From positions 1 to 25,487 of IMG/VR virus record IMGVR_UViG_3300033149_000404: a stretch of 25,487 bases of DNA. One strand, given 5' to 3'. Source of the stretch: a virus. Shown here in pieces: positions 4,186-25,487 of this stretch (position 1 is its first letter; each line of letters begins with the position of its first letter). Under the pieces are notes generated by a model, which saw nothing but the letters and a program-made list of their open reading frames with translations, did no database searches and was not told the DNA's origin. The position numbers and the translations under genes were made by a program.

Positions 4186-5864
4186 GTATAAAGTGGACAT
4201 TTAATCCATTCACAGGTGAGCTTGATGCGTATGACCCTTCTATGGGTGCAACAGGTCCTACAGGACCCACAGGTGCTACAGGTGCTACAGGAGCCACAGG
4301 TCCCACAACTGCAGGTCCCACAGGTCCCACAGGTCCCACAGGTGCTACAGGTGCTACAGGTGCTACAGGTGCTACAGGAGCCACAGGTCCCACAACTGCA
4401 GGTCCCACAGGTGCTACAGGTGCTACAGGTGCTACAGGTGCAACTGGTGCTACAGGTGCTACAGGTGCTACAGGTGCAACTGGTGCAACTGGAGCCACAG
4501 GTCCCACAACTGCAGGTCCCACAGGAGCCACAGGTGCTACAGGTGCAACTGGTGCTACAGGTGCTACAGGTGCTACAGGAGCCACAGGTCCCACAACTGC
4601 AGGTCCCACAGGTGCTACAGGAGCTACAGGTGCAACTGGTGCAACTGGTGCTACAGGAGCTACAGGTGCAACAGGACCCACAGGTCCTACAGGTGCAACT
4701 GGAACAAGTGCAACTGGAGTGGAATATTATTTTGAGAGCACTGATTCCGATATAGGTGGTTATGATACGATGACTAGAAATCCTGGAGATGTAGGTACTC
4801 AAGTAACATATCAACAGACATTTAAAAATACTGATGGGGAAGTCCTCTTAAAGAGTTTTATCACAGATGTAGGAGACCCTGGAGTAAATGAGATACCTGC
4901 AGGAATTTGGGAACTTGATTTGTTTGGAGCCGTTAGTAGTGATGCTGGTGATACTAGGTTAAAGGTTTATTTATATAAGAGGTCGTTGGGTGGTTCAGAA
5001 ACAGAAATTTGTAATACTGGTGGTGAGTTAGGAGAGATGTCTGGAAGTTCGGCGGCACTTTATAGTTGTGAGAAAGTGCTGTCCGCTGCTGAAGGTTTGG
5101 AAATTTCGGATAGGTTAGTTTTTAAAGTGTATGCTTATACAGATTCTGCATCTGATAAGACAGTGACTTTGTATATTGAAGGAGAAGATACTGCGTCAAA
5201 GATACTGACAACTTTGTTTGCTGGTCCCGTTGGAGCAACAGGACCCACAGGTCCCACAGGTGCTACAGGAGCTACAGGTCCTACGGGTGTAACAGGAGCT
5301 ACAGGAGCCACAGGTGCAACTGGTGCAACTGGTGCTACAGGTCCCACAACTGCAGGTCCCACAGGTCCTACAGGACCCACAGGTGCAACTGGTGCTACAG
5401 GTACTCAAGGTGGTAACCTATCTTCAGATATTGTTCTTAACGGATATGATATTCAGCTACAGATAGAACCAGGAAGTGATGATACCTCTAGTGGACTAAT
5501 ATGGAAGGATGCTACGGTTGATACTAACTCACAAGGTATTGGAGCTCCATTATTTATGGCAGCGGATGGACATCTTGATACAGCAGATGCAGATGCCTCC
5601 ACTACGAGTCCATGTGTAGCTTTAGCTTTAGAAACAGGTACAGGAACTAAAGATGTATTATTATTTGGAGTAATGAGAAATGATGGGTGGAATTGGACAA
5701 CTGGACCAGGTAAAGCAAGTATAATATATGTATCTACAGCTGTTGGAACTTTAACACAAACACAGCCTAGTGGAACAGATGATGTAATTCAGCCAGTTGG
5801 GTACGCATTAACGGATGATTGTATATTCTTTAATCCATCTATGATGTACTTTACTCATACATGA
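4182..5864 (+). CDS. Collagen-like phage fibre protein
   Basis: A 560-residue structural protein with two Gly-X-Thr collagen-like stretches. After a short N-terminal segment (residues 1-21), collagen region 1 spans about 22-178 and is almost only GAT and GPT triplets. A globular beta-rich domain follows (about 180-345), then collagen region 2 (about 348-407) and a C-terminal domain (about 410-560) resembling phage structural C-termini (near residues 490-560, FGVMRNDGW and QPVGYAL). The triplet phase is broken by the same five-residue interruption, PTTAG, at residues 41, 70, 108, 137 and 388. Such repeats form trimeric triple helices, so a trimeric fibre is likely. It lies between portal and protease genes, which favours a head-associated fibre, but tail attachment is not excluded. 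Long open frames in other phases here are artefacts of the repeat. Confidence 0.85.
4245..4715 (+). repeat. Collagen-coding 9-nt-period tandem repeat, block 1
   Basis: The DNA repeats with a 9-nt period (variants of GGTGCTACA, GGTGCAACT, GGTCCCACA and GGAGCCACA) encoding Gly-Ala-Thr or Gly-Pro-Thr. Synonymous variants are mixed, and a longer block encoding GPTTAGPT recurs four times. Such arrays are prone to slippage and to assembly error, so the copy number may not be exact. Confidence 0.9.
5223..5411 (+). repeat. Collagen-coding 9-nt-period tandem repeat, block 2
   Basis: A shorter array of the same 9-nt units as at 4245-4715, with the same recurring block encoding GPTTAGPT at about 5340. 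Near-identical units in the two blocks imply duplication or recombination between them. Confidence 0.88.
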
Positions 5865-17971: not shown

Positions 17972-18472
17972 ATGGCTAAAAAGATTTTAAGAAAAGTGTG
18001 TGCCTCTAAAGGCTCAAAGAAACAAAGAATAGTGTCCTTGCTACCGATTGATAGAGCAGGTTGTAAGTGTCAGGAGGATATAGTAGAGATGAAGAAGAAG
18101 TTAGAGGTTGTTATGTACACTTGCCCTAAAAGTAAGGAAAAAGGGATGAAGAAATATCTTATAACCTGTGGTGAATGTGGAGCAGATATAGCCTATATTT
18201 ACGCAAAAGATGAAAATCTCTCTGATTGGTGTGATTTACACTATATAACAGAAAATACAGGGAAAGAGTGGAAGGGATGTATGGCGGTTAATATATCTCC
18301 TGTTGATGGGAGGTTGGGTTTTGAATGTACTTGTGGTAATGACACAAGGGATTTTAGAACTAATACTACAATGCCTTCCAAACTAGCTTTAGAAATAGCA
18401 AAGGAAAATTTAATTGGTAGGGAATTCGGTAAAAGGAATTCCAAATTTAAGACAAAAGAGGTCAAAAAATGA
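17972..18472 (+). CDS. Cysteine-rich putative zinc-binding protein in the tail operon
   Basis: A 166-residue basic protein with several cysteine pairs: CKC near residues 31-33, CGECG near 66-70, and CTCGND near 118-123, plus C11, C50, C91 and C106. This suggests one or two zinc-bound knuckles. It has no signal peptide. It is preceded by its own promoter and leader hairpin, and it overlaps the next gene by 4 nt. A cytoplasmic zinc protein between the tail hub and fibre genes is unusual; it may be a regulator, assembly factor or minor virion protein. I do not recognise a named family. Confidence 0.6.
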   Translation: MAKKILRKVCASKGSKKQRIVSLLPIDRAGCKCQEDIVEMKKKLEVVMYTCPKSKEKGMKKYLITCGECGADIAYIYAKDENLSDWCDLHYITENTGKEWKGCMAVNISPVDGRLGFECTCGNDTRDFRTNTTMPSKLALEIAKENLIGREFGKRNSKFKTKEVKK

Positions 18473-19642: not shown

Positions 19643-20301
19643 TGGCTGTTTTTGATACTATTTCAGGACATCCTAACCTACAAGGTTATTGGAGATTTGA
19701 TGGTGATTTTGTTGATAGTGGTCCTAATGGTTATAACCTATCTACTACAGGTACTATAAATGATGTAACAGGAGCTTTTGGAGGTGCTAAAGATTTTGTA
19801 CCTAATGCTAAAGCATATAATAGTGCGGCTAATTGTAATATTACAGGTAGTCAAACTTGGATTGCTTGGGTTAAACCAGACTTGGCAAATAATGGTGCAA
19901 TAATAGGATTAAGAGCAAGTGGTGGTGGAAATGAGAGGATATTAGATGTTGATTCTGGTGGGGTACATTATCTTTTAGATAATTTATCACCAAGAGAATT
20001 TACTCATAGCTATGCATGGGATATTTCTAACTATCAAATGGTAGTTATGGTTTATGATTCTGGTGCTAATAAAGTAAAGACATATATAAACGGCTCTTTA
20101 ATTAACACAGAATCTGTTACAGGTTCTTTAGCGGTAATAAGTTCAAATTTTACAATAGGTGCAAATGGAGATAACAATGCAAGATATTTTAACGGAAAAA
20201 TAGATGAGGTAGCAATTTTGAATACGGCGTTATCATCGGGAGAGATTCAACAAATTTATCTTGGTGCTTCAGCAGGATTCATGTTTCAAGAGGATTTATG
20301 A
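19642..20301 (+). CDS. LamG / concanavalin-like lectin-fold protein
   Basis: A 219-residue protein that is essentially one LamG-like jelly-roll domain: LQGYWRFDGDFVDSGPNGYNL (about 13-33, quoted in part), ITGSQTWIAWVKPD, a VYDSGANKVKTYINGSLINT strand pair, FTIGANGD and FNGKIDEVAILNTALSSGEIQQIY (the typical ending). Such domains bind carbohydrates or proteins; in phages they are common in receptor-binding proteins. It follows the two fibre paralogues and overlaps the XhlA-like gene by 4 nt. There is no signal peptide, as expected for a virion protein. Confidence 0.85.
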   Translation: MAVFDTISGHPNLQGYWRFDGDFVDSGPNGYNLSTTGTINDVTGAFGGAKDFVPNAKAYNSAANCNITGSQTWIAWVKPDLANNGAIIGLRASGGGNERILDVDSGGVHYLLDNLSPREFTHSYAWDISNYQMVVMVYDSGANKVKTYINGSLINTESVTGSLAVISSNFTIGANGDNNARYFNGKIDEVAILNTALSSGEIQQIYLGASAGFMFQEDL

Positions 20302-20549
20302 AAAGAACACTTACAGAAAGAGTAACAACTTTAGAAGCTATCATACCTACTATATGTGATGATATAAATGATATCAAAACTAACCATATTGCTCATATAC
20401 AGAGTGATATACAAGGAATGAGTAAGTGTGTGAGTTCTATGAAGAGGGATAGTGCGGAAGTCAAAACAGACGTTGCTTGGTTAAAGAGGTTTTTTTGGAT
20501 TGTAGCAACAACAAGTTTGGGAAGTTTACTTACAAACTTATTAAGATAA
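20298..20549 (+). CDS. XhlA-like lysis accessory protein
   Basis: An 83-residue protein with a heptad-patterned N-terminal part (residues 1-62, RVTTLEAIIPTICDDINDIK) and one C-terminal membrane segment (about 66-82, FFWIVATTSLGSLLTNLL). This layout is that of haemolysin XhlA-type proteins that sit beside holin and endolysin genes. It overlaps the LamG gene by 4 nt and is followed by the endolysin gene. Confidence 0.75.
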   Translation: MKRTLTERVTTLEAIIPTICDDINDIKTNHIAHIQSDIQGMSKCVSSMKRDSAEVKTDVAWLKRFFWIVATTSLGSLLTNLLR

Positions 20550-20558
20550 AAAATAATT

Positions 20559-21287
20559 ATGGCAATAAAATTAAGAAAGAATTTATTTGAAGGAAATGGA
20601 TATCTTACACAAAGATTTGGAGAACACCCAGAGTGGTATGGGGTGTATGGTCTTTTGGGTCATAATGGTATTGATTATGGCATTCCTACTGGTCGTGAGC
20701 TTTATTCGTGCATATATGGAGTGTGTACTGAACGAGCTTATGATGAGAATGGTTATGGAAATTATGTGAAGATAGAAAATGATGAGTGTGGAGTTATATA
20801 TGCACATTTAAAGGAGTTTAAGGTCAAGGTTGGAGATAAAATCGCAGCAGGGACGATTCTGGGGCTTTCTGACAATACAGGAAACTCTACTGGACCCCAC
20901 CTGCATTTTGGTGTGTTTCCAAAGCCTAGAGATAGAACTAATGGGTATGCTGGGTATATTGACCCACTAGGTAAAGATATTGAGTGGGTGGATGTATTGG
21001 AAGACCCTTTTTTAAAAGTTGAAATTGAGGAGCTAGAACAAAAGATAGAGGAATTAAAGGAAAGTGTTAACTATTATAAGGAAGGTAGGAACGAGGCTTT
21101 AAGAGATGCTAATAACAAACAAAAAGAATTAGATAAAATTGGTGGTAAACTAGATAAGGCAAACAAGAAGATAAAAGAACTGGAAAAAAGGATTAAAGAG
21201 CTTACGGCATCTAGTAATTACACAATACAGGAACATATAAATGCAATTATTAAAATTATTTTAGATAAATTTATGAAGGGGGTGTAA
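20559..21287 (+). CDS. Endolysin: M23 (LytM-type) metallopeptidase with coiled-coil tail
   Basis: A 242-residue cell-wall endopeptidase. The M23 zinc site is complete: HNGIDYG (H35, D39), YAHL (H83) and PHLHFG (H114, H116). Domain span is about residues 8-135, cutting peptide cross-links in peptidoglycan. Instead of a usual wall-binding domain, residues about 153-225 form a long Glu/Lys coiled coil, which may oligomerise or tether the enzyme. No signal peptide is present, so release through the holin encoded next door fits. The ATG at 20559 is preceded only by A-rich sequence without a Shine-Dalgarno. Confidence 0.9.
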   Translation: MAIKLRKNLFEGNGYLTQRFGEHPEWYGVYGLLGHNGIDYGIPTGRELYSCIYGVCTERAYDENGYGNYVKIENDECGVIYAHLKEFKVKVGDKIAAGTILGLSDNTGNSTGPHLHFGVFPKPRDRTNGYAGYIDPLGKDIEWVDVLEDPFLKVEIEELEQKIEELKESVNYYKEGRNEALRDANNKQKELDKIGGKLDKANKKIKELEKRIKELTASSNYTIQEHINAIIKIILDKFMKGV

Positions 21288-21291
21288 ACAA

Positions 21292-21501
21292 ATGCTAGAA
21301 AAGATAAAAGAATTTATAAATAAACTACCTAAAGAGGTAAAAGTTTCGATTTATATCTTACTCTCTTTTGGTATAGGAGAACTTATTAAATACCTGACAC
21401 CATTAGAACTTGATAGTGCCGTTCTCACAGGAGTTGTAAACGTAGCATTAGTATTTTTAGCTCAATTAAAGGCTAGATTAGACACTTTAAGAAAGAGGTA
21501 A
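21292..21501 (+). CDS. Holin (putative)
   Basis: A 69-residue membrane protein with an amphipathic N-terminus (LEKIKEFINKLPKEVK), two membrane segments (about 17-34 and 43-59), and a basic C-terminal tail (KARLDTLRKR). This matches small two-helix phage holins. It starts five bases after the endolysin gene, with GAAGGGGGTG just upstream as ribosome-binding site. A terminator follows, closing the lysis operon. Confidence 0.8.
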   Translation: MLEKIKEFINKLPKEVKVSIYILLSFGIGELIKYLTPLELDSAVLTGVVNVALVFLAQLKARLDTLRKR

Positions 21502-21515
21502 ACTTTGGAAGCGGG

Positions 21516-21547
21516 GGTTTTACTTCAGGCAGTAAAGCCTCTTTTTT
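21516..21547 (+). terminator. Intrinsic terminator after the lysis cassette
   Basis: GGTTTTACT (21516-21524) pairs with AGTAAAGCC (21531-21539), 9 bp with one G-U pair around TCAGGC; TC and six T residues follow (21542-21547). It lies 15 nt after the holin stop and ends the late transcription unit. Confidence 0.85.
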
Positions 21548-21594
21548 AGGGTTTAAAATGAAAACCCGTCAAAAAATAATAGAGGAGGTACACA

Positions 21595-21771
21595 ATGTTA
21601 CAGGAGGTAATAAATGAGCTATACAGGCTTTACAGATTGCGGGACGAGGGCAAGAAAGTTGATACCCTCATTGAAAGGCTCAATGAACTTCTCAAGGAAT
21701 ACTGCATGCTTTATGAACAGGAACAGATGGATGCAAAAAAGACAAATGAGAAGAATAACGAGAACAGGTAA
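21595..21771 (+). CDS. Small 58-aa helical protein
   Basis: The ORF starts after a strong AGAGGAGGT placed about 6 nt before the ATG, and encodes a highly charged, fully helical peptide (MLQEVINELYRLYRLRDEGK, then LIERLNELLKEYCMLYEQEQ). It ends 41 nt before the phosphoesterase start. Codon endings here (CTC, ACC, GGC, TGC) are more GC-rich than in the tail genes, as in the next gene. Function unknown. Confidence 0.72.
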   Translation: MLQEVINELYRLYRLRDEGKKVDTLIERLNELLKEYCMLYEQEQMDAKKTNEKNNENR

Positions 21772-21812
21772 GAAAGGAAAGACATACTAGAAAGATGTTA
21801 AAGGAGGTTAAA

Positions 21813-22841
21813 ATGTCCAAGAGCCTTGCTTTGAAGAACGTTGAAAATCCAGAGAAAATTATTAAACGCCTAAAGGCACAAGGAAGGAAGTATGAACGCA
21901 TCATTAAGCAATACGAAGATGAGGGAAGTCTGACGGATAAAATTATCAGCGTGGTAACAGACTCAATAGAAAGTATCCCACCTATCAAATTGCCTAAAGT
22001 TCGTGTTTATGAAGATGCTCAACAAGAGGAAGTGGCGGTACTTTTATTGTCTGACATCCACATTGGTAAACAAACTAAGTCCTACAACCATAAAGTCTTT
22101 GTAAAAAGACTTGAGGTTCTTCAAAATTCAATGATGAGTATTGTTGAAGCACATCGAAGCATAAGACCTATTAGAAAGTTGGTCATTGTTATGAATGGGG
22201 ACATTATAGATGCTGAAAGTGTCTATCCCTCTCAAGCAATAGACCACATCTCAGCCAAAATTATAGACCAGATATTTAGTATTGGTCTGCCAAAGCTGAC
22301 GGAGTTTTTGTACTTCTGTTTGGAAAACTTTGAGGAAGTAGAATGTTACTGCCAAAAAGGAAACCACGGAAGGTTAAACGCTTCTAAATGGTCAAGTTCA
22401 AAATCAACAAACTGGGACTTCGTAATGTATAAGTCTCTTGAAGCTGCAACTAAATTGCAACCCAGAATTAAGTGGCACATCAATACGAAAGACTGGAAGT
22501 CTATGTTCAAAATACAAGGGCATGGATTTTTAGCTTGTCATGGAGATATGATAAGAATGTACTACTCATTACCAGATTATGGTTTCAGTAGACAGTCTTT
22601 AAGATGGGCAAACGCTTACCGTAATAAAATGAAGCTAACCCACTTTTTATTTAGCCACTTTCACTCAATCAATACAGGTAAACGCTTCAACGACATTGTA
22701 TATTATTGCAATGGGAGTTTCGTAACTGACGACCCTTTTGGCGAAGAACACCTCGGCGTAGCTTCTGTTCCCGAACAACTATTCTTTTTCGTACATAAGA
22801 AGTTCGGAGTTACAGGAAGATATCCTATCTCTCTGGTATAG
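21813..22841 (+). CDS. Calcineurin-like metallophosphoesterase
   Basis: A 342-residue phosphoesterase with a complete set of metal-binding motifs: SDIHIG (D81, H83), NGDIID (D130), KGNHGR (N184, H185), ACHGD (H243) and FSHFHS (H282, H284). The motif order is that of the SbcD/Mre11-type superfamily, but no nuclease capping domain is identifiable. The start is the ATG at 21813, which has AAGGAGGT 5-6 nt upstream; an earlier in-frame ATG at 21795 would include that site. The N-terminal 70 residues are helical and family-specific. A hairpin terminator follows. The third-position base use looks richer in G and C than in flanking genes. Substrate unknown: DNA, nucleotide or phosphoprotein are possible. 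Confidence 0.88.
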   Translation: MSKSLALKNVENPEKIIKRLKAQGRKYERIIKQYEDEGSLTDKIISVVTDSIESIPPIKLPKVRVYEDAQQEEVAVLLLSDIHIGKQTKSYNHKVFVKRLEVLQNSMMSIVEAHRSIRPIRKLVIVMNGDIIDAESVYPSQAIDHISAKIIDQIFSIGLPKLTEFLYFCLENFEEVECYCQKGNHGRLNASKWSSSKSTNWDFVMYKSLEAATKLQPRIKWHINTKDWKSMFKIQGHGFLACHGDMIRMYYSLPDYGFSRQSLRWANAYRNKMKLTHFLFSHFHSINTGKRFNDIVYYCNGSFVTDDPFGEEHLGVASVPEQLFFFVHKKFGVTGRYPISLV

Positions 22842-22861
22842 AAAGGAGGTGGTCAATCTCT

Positions 22862-22892
22862 AGCCCTGTTAATAACCTAGCAGGGCTTTTTT
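22862..22892 (+). terminator. Intrinsic terminator after the phosphoesterase gene
   Basis: AGCCCTG (22862-22868) pairs with CAGGGCT (22881-22887) and is followed by Ts. Just before it, GAAAGGAGGTGG (22842-22853) is a perfect Shine-Dalgarno right after the stop, but no start codon follows at useful distance; it may be a remnant of a lost gene. Confidence 0.82.
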
Positions 22893-23042
22893 CTATGCTA
22901 TAATTTAGATGGTATATCAGGGGGTATATTATGTCTCAACGAATTATATATATATGGTGAGTTAAGCCGCCTGTGAACCTATGCCTCTGCTTTTTTGCTG
23001 GGGCATATTTAATCCATAAATAAAAAAGAGCCAAGAAAAATC
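22893..23042 (+). promoter_or_regulatory. Non-coding regulatory stretch: extended -10, 9-codon ORF, U-loop hairpin
   Basis: TGC-TATAAT (22896-22904) is an extended -10 without a clear -35. Next, AGGGGG precedes ATG TCT... at 22931, a nine-codon ORF (MSQRIIYIW, stop at 22958-22960). Then ATGCCTCTGC (22981-22990) pairs with GCTGGGGCAT (22997-23006) across six Ts, with one mismatch and one G-U pair. This order (promoter, short ORF with late Trp, hairpin) recalls a leader-peptide arrangement, but no downstream terminator partner is evident. From 22842 to 23153 I see no larger gene. Confidence 0.4.
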
Positions 23043-23050
23043 TTGACTCT
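23022..23050 (-). terminator. Minus-strand intrinsic terminator
   Basis: Read on the minus strand, AGAGTCAAGA (23050-23041) pairs with TCTTGGCTCT (23036-23027) around a 4-nt T loop and runs into TTTTT. The single G-U pair exists only in minus-strand RNA; on the plus strand it is a C-A mismatch, so the element is built for leftward transcription. No minus-strand gene is seen to its right in the window. Confidence 0.6.
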
Positions 23051-23071
23051 AATTTAAATGTGAGTTATAAT
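23043..23071 (+). promoter_or_regulatory. Sigma70-type promoter for the YopX-like gene
   Basis: TTGACT (23043-23048) is separated by 17 nt from a perfect TATAAT (23066-23071). The -35 box lies inside the arm of the minus-strand terminator. The start site should be near 23078-23080. Confidence 0.75.
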
Positions 23072-23078
23072 TCACATT
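23057..23078. promoter_or_regulatory. Inverted-repeat operator over the -10 box
   Basis: AATGTGA (23057-23063) and TCACATT (23072-23078) form a perfect 7-bp inverted repeat separated by GTTATAAT, so the -10 box sits in its centre. A second smaller dyad, TTCAC (23071-23075) with GTGAA (23082-23086), overlaps. Placement is ideal for a repressor. The AATGTG half-site also occurs at the portal and 17922 promoters. Confidence 0.65.
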
Positions 23079-23096
23079 ACAGTGAACAATATAATT

Positions 23097-23150
23097 ATAC
23101 CAAAATCTAGCAACCCACACAAGTGAGTGCCAAGAATTGGTATTTTTTTT
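23097..23150 (+). promoter_or_regulatory. Leader stem with T-tract before the YopX-like gene
   Basis: ATACCAA (23097-23103) pairs with TTGGTAT (23137-23143), or locally CCAA-GAA-TTGG (23130-23140), and is followed by TTTTTTT, then ATT and the ATG at 23154. It is attenuator-like, with no Shine-Dalgarno. Confidence 0.5.
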
Positions 23151-23153
23151 ATT

Positions 23154-23510
23154 ATGAATAGAGAAATTAAATTCCGAGCTTGGCACAAACCAAGACAGAT
23201 GATAATTACAAACGAGATGCTAATGAATTGGGAAACCAAAGACGGCGAGTATCTACATAGGGCTTTAACAGATGAGGACTATGTAGTAATGCAATACACA
23301 GGGTTGAAGGATAAGAATGGTAAAGAGATATATGAGGGTGATATTGTTAAAAAGGAGTCTGGTAAAACTAATAAAACTGAGGGTGAATTTACTGTTATAT
23401 GGAAAGGTGCGGGATTTTCTATATACAACGCCCAAAATAAATATACAGGTTGGCTAGGTAAAGATGTGGCTAATCATTCAGAAGTGATTGGCAATATCTT
23501 TACAGAGTAA
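23154..23510 (+). CDS. YopX-family phage protein
   Basis: A 118-residue protein starting MNREIKFRAWHKPRQMI, the characteristic opening of YopX proteins, followed by the typical MQYTGLKDKNGKEIYEGDIVKK (about 58-79, quoted in two halves of the family motif) and an SH3-like C-terminus ending VIGNIFTE. The family is widespread in phages of low-GC bacteria; its role is unknown. I chose the ATG at 23154 rather than the in-frame GTG at 23127, because the latter lies within the leader stem and the family begins at MNREIKF. Regulated by the promoter and operator upstream. Confidence 0.88.
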   Translation: MNREIKFRAWHKPRQMIITNEMLMNWETKDGEYLHRALTDEDYVVMQYTGLKDKNGKEIYEGDIVKKESGKTNKTEGEFTVIWKGAGFSIYNAQNKYTGWLGKDVANHSEVIGNIFTE

Positions 23511-23518
23511 ATCTGTAA

Positions 23519-23676
23519 GTTGACGGGGCTACACTAGCCTATCCATACTTTAGTTGGATTTATAGTGTCCAAAACGGATACCTCAATCATATATGATTAG
23601 GAAACGGCTTGGTTAACAGAGAAAAGAATACCTGAAGATTTAAATACCCTGGGGGCTATATAGGGATAAATATTTT
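23519..23676 (+). promoter_or_regulatory. Structured non-coding leader upstream of the 68-aa gene
   Basis: Between two genes lie several nested stems: ACACTA (23531-23536) with TAGTGT (23563-23568) enclosing ATCCA (23541-23545) with TGGAT (23555-23559); CCAA (23569-23572) with TTGG (23609-23612) enclosing CCT-AATCA (23581-23589) with TGATT-AGG (23594-23601); and CCCT (23647-23650) with AGGG (23662-23665) near the ATG. GGCTA-CAC-TAGCC (23528-23539 region) is a competing hairpin. A weak TTGACG/CATACT pair (23520-23549) could be a promoter. It might be a riboswitch-like or regulatory RNA; I recognise no family. Confidence 0.4.
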
Positions 23677-23883
23677 ATGGAACAAAAGCAAGATAAACTA
23701 CGAATTAAAGAATCAATTGGTAAAGTTAGACCTTGTGAATTGGGTAGAATGTTTAAAGATTATTACAACAAATATCTTAAAGTTGCTGATACTTCAGAAC
23801 CTTTTAAAGAGGCATTAGATATTTTTGACGGTTTAGTTCCTGTTACTACTCAGACACTTGACGACGTGTCTACTTTAGCGTAA
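23677..23883 (+). CDS. Small hypothetical phage protein (68 aa)
   Basis: A helical, charged protein (MEQKQDKLRIKESIGKVRPC..., FKDYYNKYLKVADTSEPFKEALDIF). ATTTT directly precedes the ATG and there is no Shine-Dalgarno, as at other leader-hairpin genes here. It is not recognised. The long structured leader suggests it is regulated after transcription start. Confidence 0.55.
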   Translation: MEQKQDKLRIKESIGKVRPCELGRMFKDYYNKYLKVADTSEPFKEALDIFDGLVPVTTQTLDDVSTLA

Positions 23884-23911
23884 TATTAGTTTAATATATA
23901 GTTAATATTTG

Positions 23912-23977
23912 AATGGATTTGTTCGGCGGTAGCAACGAAAGTGGAAGAAACTACATTTAGTGCTGGACATATCCATT
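23912..23977 (+). ncRNA. Candidate structured RNA between the 68-aa and HTH genes
   Basis: AATGGAT (23912-23918) pairs with ATCCATT (23971-23977), and after one T-T mismatch TGTTCGGC (23920-23927) pairs with GCTGGACA (23962-23969): 15 pairs over 66 nt, two of them G-U, which favours an RNA role over a DNA-binding site. Inside, GTAG (23929-23932) pairs with CTAC (23951-23954). It could be a cis-regulator of the HTH gene starting at 23990 or a small RNA. No match with a ribozyme or riboswitch core that I know. Confidence 0.5.
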
Positions 23978-23989
23978 TAGGTATTAACT

Positions 23990-24193
23990 ATGCCAAGACT
24001 AAATAAATATTATCAAGGACTTCAAAACTACAAAGATGAGTTAATTTATAACTCTCATATGATGAATGGTTTGAGTTTAGAAGAATTAGGTTGGATTTTT
24101 GGTATGACTAAACAAGGAATTCATAAAGCCTTAAAAAGGCATAAGAGCAACCTTAAGAAAAGAGGAATTACTATTTTAGACAAAAGTAGTTGA
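23990..24193 (+). CDS. Small helix-turn-helix protein
   Basis: A 67-residue basic protein with a clear HTH: GLSLEELGWIFGMTKQGIHKALKRHK (about 28-53; quoted as helix-turn-helix of the sigma-region-4 type, with LSLEELGWIFGMT as helix 2 plus turn and KQGIHKALKRH as recognition helix). It is likely a DNA-binding transcription regulator. It is a candidate for binding the AAATGTG dyads, but this is only inferred from proximity. No Shine-Dalgarno precedes the ATG; a structured RNA does. Confidence 0.7.
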   Translation: MPRLNKYYQGLQNYKDELIYNSHMMNGLSLEELGWIFGMTKQGIHKALKRHKSNLKKRGITILDKSS

Positions 24194-24217
24194 CAAATGG
24201 TTTAAAAAGTATATACT
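24190..24217 (+). promoter_or_regulatory. Sigma70-type promoter before the 24235/24250 gene
   Basis: Consensus TTGACA (24190-24195), a 16-nt spacer and TATACT (24212-24217). The start site would be about 24224, so the leader is only 10-25 nt. It overlaps the stop of the HTH gene. Confidence 0.65.
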
Positions 24218-24249
24218 TAACATAGTAAATAATTATGAAGGGAACAAAG

Positions 24250-24504
24250 ATGAAAACAGCTACAAAAAACTATCACCCTAAACTTGTAAAAAATTTGAAT
24301 GATTTAACAGATAGAGCGTTAGATTGTTTTAATATCAAAAATCCTTTGAAGAATAAAAATCCTACTTGGGATGATTTATATAAATATGGTTTTACCAGCA
24401 AAATTAAAACTATAAGAAAGCCATCTTTTGAAGATTTTATTAACGAGGAAAAATACAGTGATGAAGGAATTGCATTTGATGAAGATGGGAGTTTAATAGA
24501 GTGA
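24250..24504 (+). CDS. Hypothetical phage protein (84-89 aa)
   Basis: The protein has a basic N-terminus (KTATKNYHPKLVKNLNDLTD) and an acidic C-terminus (FEDFINEEKYSDEGIAFDED). It is not recognised. ATGs at 24235 and 24250 are both possible; the second has AAGGGA 6 nt upstream and is preferred here, while the first would be nearly leaderless. The end overlaps the RlpA-like gene by 4 nt (GTGA). Confidence 0.55.
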   Translation: MKTATKNYHPKLVKNLNDLTDRALDCFNIKNPLKNKNPTWDDLYKYGFTSKIKTIRKPSFEDFINEEKYSDEGIAFDEDGSLIE

Positions 24505-24992
24505 CTTACAAAATTGTTACACAGAATAACATATATTTAGAGCAGGAGTTAAAAAGAAAGTTTTATACAGGATTAGGTTTGGGAATAGCAATAACTACAT
24601 TGGTTTTAAGTCCATTTATTCTTGTTAAGGAAGCCCCTACTCAAGAAGCAAATTCCGACCTTATGCAGGTAGAAGAGCAGGTAGAAGATAAACAAACTTG
24701 GGTAGGTAAGGCTTCCTATTATTCTTGGGATGGTTGTGTTGGATGTGACCCTAATAGAATAATGGCTAATGGTGAGGTTTTAGATGATAATGCTTATACA
24801 GTTGCGTTTAATGAGCTTCCATTGGGTACTTATGTAATGGTCAGAAATTTGGCTAATGGTCAATTTGTTACAGCACAAGTTACTGATACTGGTGGATTTG
24901 ATAAATTAGACAGAATTATTGATTTAACTATAGCTGTTAAGAATGCAATAGGTTGTGGTGATTTATGTGATGTGGAGGTCAAAGAGTTATGA
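24501..24992 (+). CDS. RlpA-like double-psi beta-barrel protein with N-terminal membrane anchor
   Basis: A 163-residue protein starting with GTG in an overlap with the previous gene. Residues about 21-42 form a hydrophobic segment (signal anchor), then a linker rich in Glu/Gln (44-66), then an RlpA-like DPBB domain (about 67-162): GKASYYSWDGCVGC, IMANGEVLDDNAYTVAFNEL, PLGTYVMVRNL, the key VTDTGGFDKLDRIIDLT and IGCGDLCDVEV. D129 in VTDTGG is the conserved acidic residue of this family. Cysteines C79, C82, C152 and C156 may form disulfides outside the cell. RlpA proteins can act as peptidoglycan lytic transglycosylases. It lies far from the lysis cassette, so roles in entry exclusion, envelope remodelling or a spanin-like step are possible. 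It could have been acquired from a host. Confidence 0.82.
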   Translation: MTYKIVTQNNIYLEQELKRKFYTGLGLGIAITTLVLSPFILVKEAPTQEANSDLMQVEEQVEDKQTWVGKASYYSWDGCVGCDPNRIMANGEVLDDNAYTVAFNELPLGTYVMVRNLANGQFVTAQVTDTGGFDKLDRIIDLTIAVKNAIGCGDLCDVEVKEL

Positions 24993-25135
24993 ATATAGAT
25001 AGATATTGTCATGTGTGTGGGGGTTATATAAGTTTAAAACAATATATGTATTGTAAAAAACATAATATGAAACCCACTTGTTGGGATTGCCAAAAGGGTA
25101 ACAAATTAGTAAGCAAGGAGGTGAAAAAGAAATGA
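24989..25135 (+). CDS. Small zinc-ribbon protein (48 aa)
   Basis: The ORF MNIDRYCHVCGGYISLKQYM... carries two cysteine pairs, CHVC (7-10) and CWDC (31-34), with C22 and H25 between them (YCKKHN), so a zinc ribbon is likely. It overlaps the RlpA-like gene by 4 nt (ATGA) and the following ATG by 4 nt, as expected in a compact operon. The DNA near its end holds the AAGGAGGTG of the next gene. Function unknown. Confidence 0.65.
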   Translation: MNIDRYCHVCGGYISLKQYMYCKKHNMKPTCWDCQKGNKLVSKEVKKK

Positions 25136-25487
25136 GTTTTAAACCAGAAGGATATGAAAAATTTACTGCGAGTAATTATATGAAGTTAGAAGAAGGACCT
25201 AACAAGATTAGGATATTAACAGAGCCTATAAATGGTTATGAGTATTGGGTATTTGAGGATGGTCAGATTGTACCAAAGGGAACATTAGCAGGACCAGGAG
25301 GAAAACCTGTTAGATTAAGACCCAGTGAAAATTTTACTAAAGAGCAGATAGCAAATATGAGAATGTTCTCTGCGATGGTTGTGTGGAATTATAATCTTGA
25401 GAAAGTGCAAATACTAGAGATTAAGCAGATTGGTATTATGAATGCTTTGGACGCTTTGTATGATTCAAAGGCGTGGGGAGATGCTAC
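25132..25487 (+). CDS. Putative phage single-stranded DNA-binding protein (cut by window edge)
   Basis: The first 118 residues are visible: MSFKPEGYEKFTASNYMKLE, then GPNKIRILTEPINGYEYWVF, GPGGKPVRLRPSENFTKEQ, MRMFSAMVVWNYNLEKVQIL and EIKQIGIMNALDALYDSKAW. The pattern Y-x-K-L-x-E-G-x-N-K-I-R-I-L-x-x-P-x-x-G-Y-E-Y-W followed by a W-N-Y-x-x-x-K-V-Q-I-L-E-I segment resembles phage OB-fold ssDNA-binding proteins, though not decisively. AAGGAGGTG lies about 11 nt before the ATG. It probably opens the DNA replication module beyond the window. Confidence 0.6.
   Translation, partial: MSFKPEGYEKFTASNYMKLEEGPNKIRILTEPINGYEYWVFEDGQIVPKGTLAGPGGKPVRLRPSENFTKEQIANMRMFSAMVVWNYNLEKVQILEIKQIGIMNALDALYDSKAWGDA

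Follow-up and report, generated by a model that had tools for sequence, protein, structure and literature searches.

According to the sections of the published account used here (PMC12802891), the helD/pps system of Bacillus subtilis has sense and antisense promoters that face each other upstream of the gene, the antisense promoter carrying an extended -10 box. The antisense RNA is terminated and about 94 nt long, the two start sites lie 39 bp from each other (inclusive), and the helD pattern asks for 45–55 bp between the -10 boxes; such systems are characterised by induction with subinhibitory rifampicin, and shortening the gap by 17 bp abolishes the drug response (PMC12802891). For IS10, the relevant part of the description (PMC5006887) gives RNA-OUT, from the pIN/pOUT pair, as a 69-nt antisense RNA that comes from the opposing promoter and covers the translation start of the transposase mRNA, over 35 nt; since single changes in pIN destabilise RNA-OUT, this antisense RNA and the sense promoter share bases. 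In phages, P22 sar and lambda OOP are short RNAs made from promoters opposing the main transcript; the passages drawn on here report interference between pO and pR in lambda, OOP covering cII and sar covering ant (PMC13397905, PMC3985674).

The locus considered here is an intergenic stretch (22894–23153) of IMGVR_UViG_3300033149_000404, a 25,487-base virus record from an uncultured phage; this whole stretch of DNA was analysed and is called the window (Table 1). Among the viral contigs and genome contigs scanned, the element was found in a single other record, IMGVR_UViG_3300033145_000051 (G001; 41,720 bases), hereafter the relative, and every statement on conservation refers to this one pairwise comparison. 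Both ends of the relative's record fall in a collagen-like repeat gene, and it is therefore probably near complete. In the window, a collagen-like repeat gene (GATGPTGPT) occupies 4230–5460.

The best explanation of the locus, held with moderate confidence, is a convergent-promoter switch in which a terminated antisense RNA, RNA C, starts from a local leftward promoter, P-, facing a rightward promoter, P+. RNA polymerase would hold P+ or P-, one at a time, and a polymerase leaving one promoter would cross the opposing one and then halt at the terminator just behind it. The short leftward RNA C (~67 nt, 23087 to 23021) would start at the nearby P- and be ended by a hairpin, in the -35 region of P+, and a 72-nt rightward RNA B would end at about 23150, behind P-. 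The outcome would be a switch between two mutually exclusive states, located where the late genes of the phage meet the early ones. Furthermore, RNA C, being complementary to transcripts that read through from the upstream promoter P1 via RNA A, could act antisense on that leader.

By analogy, the locus resembles helD, RNA-OUT, sar and OOP in its presumed working and is placed in none of these families. As in the sections cited for helD, the promoters are convergent, the antisense RNA would be short and terminated, and the antisense promoter has an extended -10 box (TGGTATAAT); the antisense end would lie 58 bp upstream of the sense start, close to the ~55 bp that follow arithmetically from the 39 bp of helD. 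The locus differs from that account by its start sites, 39 bp apart there and predicted to overlap by 9 bp here with -10 boxes 22 bp apart, by a rightward unit that would end at once as well, and by its phage setting. The 45–55 bp helD pattern, as worded in those sections, does not occur at the locus; it is matched nowhere in the window (0 sites) and, in the relative, at 3 other places (2638, 9869, 28417).

RNA C would have about the length of RNA-OUT (67 nt predicted, 69 nt for RNA-OUT as described) and would likewise share bases with the sense promoter; unlike the published case, RNAs B and C would overlap by ~9 nt and no translation start lies beneath RNA C. The likeness drawn to sar and OOP, both short phage RNAs from opposing promoters, is one of layout, and the passages on those RNAs have them covering coding mRNA, whereas the opposite strand is non-coding here. 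Indeed, RNA C would lie over neither coding sequence nor a translation start, 23021–23087 being non-coding on the plus strand and the next downstream start codon being at 23154. P22 sar is 68–69 nt long. The two parts of a short terminated RNA of the RNA-OUT or sar type, an opposing promoter and a terminator, are both predicted at the locus and conserved. A small literature search found no description of such an arrangement for a phage.

Table 1. Features predicted at the late/early boundary of the window.
Feature	Position	Strand	Basis or state in the relative
Terminator ending the late genes	22863–22886	plus	d 36.4 (relative 28.6)
P1 promoter, extended -10 box TGCTATAAT (relative: TGTTATACT)	22896–22904	plus	Motif
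Structured RNA A, three helices	22911–23015	plus	Three double compensatory changes (window against relative)
Predicted RNA C, 67 nt, two hairpins	23021–23087	minus	P- and the terminator
U-run of RNA C terminator, TTTTTT in minus	23021–23026	minus	Eroded to TTTTCA in the relative
Terminator stem-loop of RNA C, 10 bp, 4-nt loop	23027–23050	minus	Terminator score, fold, conservation
Promoter P+, TTGACT (23043–23048), 17 bp, TATAAT (23066–23071)	23043–23071	plus	Consensus match 11/12
Perfect palindrome AATGTGA-N8-TCACATT over the P+ -10; first hairpin of RNA C; possible operator	23057–23078		TGTGA-N8-TCACA kept in the relative
Predicted RNA B, 72 nt	23079–23150	plus	P+ and its terminator
Extended -10 of P-, TGGTATAAT	23094–23102	minus	Only minus-strand TGNTATAAT of the window
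P- promoter, weak -35 box TTGTGT (relative: TTGCGT)	23117–23122	minus	Read from the sequences
RNA B terminator stem-loop, then T7-8 just ahead of the YopX start codon	23127–23143	plus	Terminator score
YopX-like gene (phrog_98; TIGR01671), no visible Shine-Dalgarno	23154–23510	plus	Absent at this place in the relative

The minus-strand sequence of the hairpin is AGAGTCAAGA-TTTT-TCTTGGCTCT, followed by TTTTTTATTTA. An earlier note on this DNA had claimed that its stem pairs fully only in minus-strand RNA and that one arm contains the plus-strand -35 box, and both statements stand. All 10 pairs form in the minus RNA, including a U-G pair that becomes C-A in the plus RNA, the folding energies being -13.7 kcal/mol and -8.8 kcal/mol, respectively; TTGACT lies in the right arm. 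The hairpin is a GC-containing stem-loop with a U-run directly behind it, as in intrinsic terminators. Terminators were ranked with a d'Aubenton-type score, which combines stem energy and T-run, and the hairpin comes first of the 5 terminators of the window (d 38.0) and is the sole one on the minus strand. Its score was equalled on either strand in none of 1500 dinucleotide shuffles of 22842–23160. Its reading as an intrinsic terminator for leftward RNA is thereby supported, at the level of sequence.

The two genomes are 79% identical over the intergenic stretch, and their two longest unchanged runs, 23024–23054 (31 nt; P = 0.007 by column shuffling) and 23094–23109 (16 nt), coincide with both ends of the leftward unit C proposed here. 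Identical columns amount to 24/24 at 23027–23050, 16/16 at 23094–23109 and 12/13 at 23066–23078, and to 6/11, 8/16 and 10/17 in the flanking blocks 23016–23026, 23079–23093 and 23110–23126. The -35 box of P+ accounts for part of the conservation of the terminator stem, in which every pair is invariant between the two genomes, so that there is no covariation. P+ explains the conservation only in part because 23094–23109 lies downstream of its start site. The strand is indicated by two details: the U-G pair of the stem is present in both genomes as minus RNA, and in the first hairpin of RNA C one pair changes, as minus RNA, from A-U in the window to G-U in the relative; in plus RNA these U-G and G-U pairs would be A-C or C-A. 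Both favour the minus strand. In the relative, the first hairpin has lost its outermost pair and the terminator of RNA C scores d 12.9 as against 38.0, its U-run being eroded (TTTTCAATTATA).

An accidental overlap of a promoter and a terminator-like hairpin is very improbable. Simple counts in 20000–25487 are close to expectation and not above shuffles, with 4 terminator-like sites for 2.4 expected (sd 1.7) and 21 promoter-like sites for 21.4 expected, and a loose pattern of closely spaced convergent promoters is common (6 in the window, 9 in the relative). Chance would nevertheless have to produce both the score that no shuffle equalled and the 31-nt unchanged run.

Searches beyond the relative gave little. 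Matches to the hairpin pattern in L021 and L022 were judged to be due to chance, their surroundings being unlike the window, and the element was not matched in the more distant protein-level relatives (L003/L029, L030, L033–L036, L038, L039). A phage DNA search returned weak short matches only; a similar terminator in an intergenic stretch of Staphylococcus phage CF5, between same-strand genes, was judged a chance similarity (E 0.03).

The promoter P- is missed by a standard -35/-10 scan and was found via the extended -10 motif, which was chosen after the sequence had been seen. In the window, TGNTATAAT has four plus-strand sites (908, 7156, 17926, 22896) and a single minus-strand one; the relative has three plus-strand sites (3793, 14881, 37191) and one minus-strand site (19759), which is the ortholog of the 23094 site. 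The plus-strand sites are located at gene starts or ends. As shuffled windows contain about 1.3 sites per strand, a single minus-strand site is unremarkable by count; its position is the remarkable point. Indeed, none of 1500 locus shuffles combined TGNTATAAT with a same-strand terminator of d at least 12 within 150 nt. Two of the plus-strand sites in each genome belong to a promoter repeat, AAATGTGGTATAAT with ACGCAGA close behind (908 and 17926 in the window; 37191 and 14881 in G001), which precedes a portal-like gene and the gene at 17972 in both genomes.

RNA C is predicted to start near G23087, and the polymerase would reach the stem 37 bases on. From the coordinates, its predicted length is 67 nt in the window and 66 nt in the relative; the minus strand of 23021–23088 folds at -21.5 kcal/mol. 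No Rfam family reached its gathering cut-off anywhere in the window; below the cut-off, SorY matched the locus best (24 bits for a cut-off of 111; 23021–23087, minus). A trans target was sought as a second plus-strand site of the window sharing at least 11 bases with the locus, and none was found.

The earlier note had reasoned that something must be transcribed leftward from the right, possibly an antisense RNA across the YopX gene, and that no minus-strand gene is visible. Leftward transcription into the hairpin is supported by sequence; the far source is not, as the extended -10 box of P- lies only 43 bases upstream of the stem. The antisense RNA across YopX is not borne out either, since the predicted ~67-nt RNA starts left of the ATG at 23154 and the relative has no YopX gene there. 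No minus-strand gene is evident indeed: 45 of the 46 ORFs of the relative (at least 70 aa, non-overlapping) are on the plus strand, so that no leftward operon in need of a terminator at 23027–23050 is seen and a distant leftward operon is an unlikely source. A minus-strand coding gene at the locus itself was rejected, as neither the starts nor the lengths of the small minus-strand ORFs agree in the two genomes.

Leftward transcription might also be stray. The hairpin would then be an insulator, i.e. a leftward terminator, with no dedicated promoter, that stops stray antisense transcription before the late operon. It is indeed the best minus-strand terminator of the window and stands back to back with the late operon's own terminator, and weak minus-strand promoter-like sites are found farther right (24016, 25093). 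This reading, which we consider unlikely, leaves unexplained the unchanged TAGATTTTGGTATAAT (23094–23109) between flanks that have changed on both sides. A short RNA from the local promoter is thus ranked first, followed by the insulator and then by a DNA operator.

P+ is one of the two best promoter matches within 20000–25487, and both of its hexamers and its spacer length are kept in the relative. A near-palindrome, AGAGCCAAGA-N4-TCTTGACTCT, covers its -35 box and the palindrome of Table 1 its -10 box; both might be DNA operators that bind a phage repressor of P+, the hairpin being a by-product of the dyad. The first is unchanged in the relative, which keeps the core of the second and encodes a 64-aa HTH protein. 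However, good further copies of these palindromes are found in neither of the two genomes (the first has no other site within 4 mismatches), and an operator needs neither a T-run beside the stem on one strand nor a pairing kept as U-G in minus RNA, which makes this possibility quite unlikely.

Rightward transcription from P+ is predicted to start near A23079 and would yield an RNA B of the same length, 72 nt, in both genomes, as calculated from the coordinates. The stem of its terminator is maintained in the relative with one G-U to G-C change, and its score rises from d 17.3 in the window to d 30.4 in the relative, the best of 8 there. In the relative, nothing is evidently coding for ~250 bases past RNA B; the predicted RNA B is therefore probably either an independent RNA or a leader subject to attenuation. 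A plus-strand hairpin, AUACCAA/UUGGUAU, was considered as an anti-terminator and dropped, as only 5 bp remain in the relative.

The YopX ATG lies within a few bases of the T-run of RNA B. The relative retains the P- promoter and the hairpin without YopX at this place, so that the element does not owe its presence to YopX. The ~250 non-coding bases found there instead (L002 7527–7776) fold strongly, at -67 kcal/mol, and carry a long 5' hairpin. Another structured stretch without coding capacity is present in the early region (23901–23989 in the window; L002 7963–8049), with one long hairpin per genome. The arms of this hairpin differ, 3 of the 10 outer pairs being changed on both sides, around a common core, GGCGGTAGNAACGAAAGT and AGTGC; Rfam gave no match of note for either copy.

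On the upstream side, RNA A follows P1; all of its 21 pairs hold in the relative, and 20 of them do so in the window. The column null gives P = 0.002 for its compensatory changes, the structure being drawn from those same two sequences; by pair counting, 64 of 500 shuffles match the observed value, two rows giving little power. Among the 23 sources searched, the covariance model found only the copies of the window and of the relative at a meaningful E-value. P1 transcripts running on would carry the full complement of RNA C.

The hairpin might also work on the plus strand, within a long P1 leader (22911 onward) in which it would follow RNA A and serve as a spacer or as a stem that stabilises the leader. 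RNA A is a real structured plus-strand RNA and the hairpin also folds, less stably, in plus RNA, but in that RNA it has the C-A mismatch in both genomes and no U-run. As the conservation of the right arm is also better accounted for by P+ within the hairpin, this role is improbable.

Two further observations concern the boundary upstream. Directly behind the stop codon that ends the late genes, and ahead of their terminator, both genomes have AAGGAGGTG(A/G)TC (22844–22855; L002 7036–7047 in the relative). This sequence is almost perfectly complementary to the 3' end of 16S rRNA, yet no gene that it could serve is visible. In the distant relative L029 (4990–5085; 56% protein identity), the late genes have a terminator-like end, followed by TGCTATAAT and a short RNA with a terminator-like end, i.e. 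the same layout as P1 without sequence similarity.

Returning to the convergent-promoter switch, its geometry can be read from the two sequences. The -10 boxes of P+ and P- are 22 bp apart in the window and 23 bp in the relative, each promoter lies inside the unit of the other, and each terminator is just behind the opposing promoter, that of RNA C covering the -35 box of P+ and the stem of RNA B beginning 5 bp behind the weak -35 box of P-. From the start sites, which we infer to overlap by ~9 bp, and from the size of a polymerase footprint, open complexes would hardly form at P+ and P- simultaneously. The suggestion that the two directions would interfere is in line with these overlapping start sites and with the bases shared by the -35 box and the terminator. 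A further step, which is doubtful, would be that three interlocked RNA units, the leader A, B and C, are packed into ~260 bases without any protein, the choice of promoter alone deciding between a leader that continues into the early genes and one covered by antisense RNA C.

The long antisense RNA envisaged over YopX would be replaced by a short local one, which can easily be tested. If the RNAs exist, the locus would be a very tight natural pair of convergent promoters with overlapping start sites, in which the same bases act as -35 box and as terminator stem, and would provide a compact test bed for promoter occlusion. A set of conserved non-coding RNAs would also be gained for a phage group that is known here from metagenomes alone. 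Globally, the locus is predicted to be a genetic switch of a known kind in an unusually compact form.
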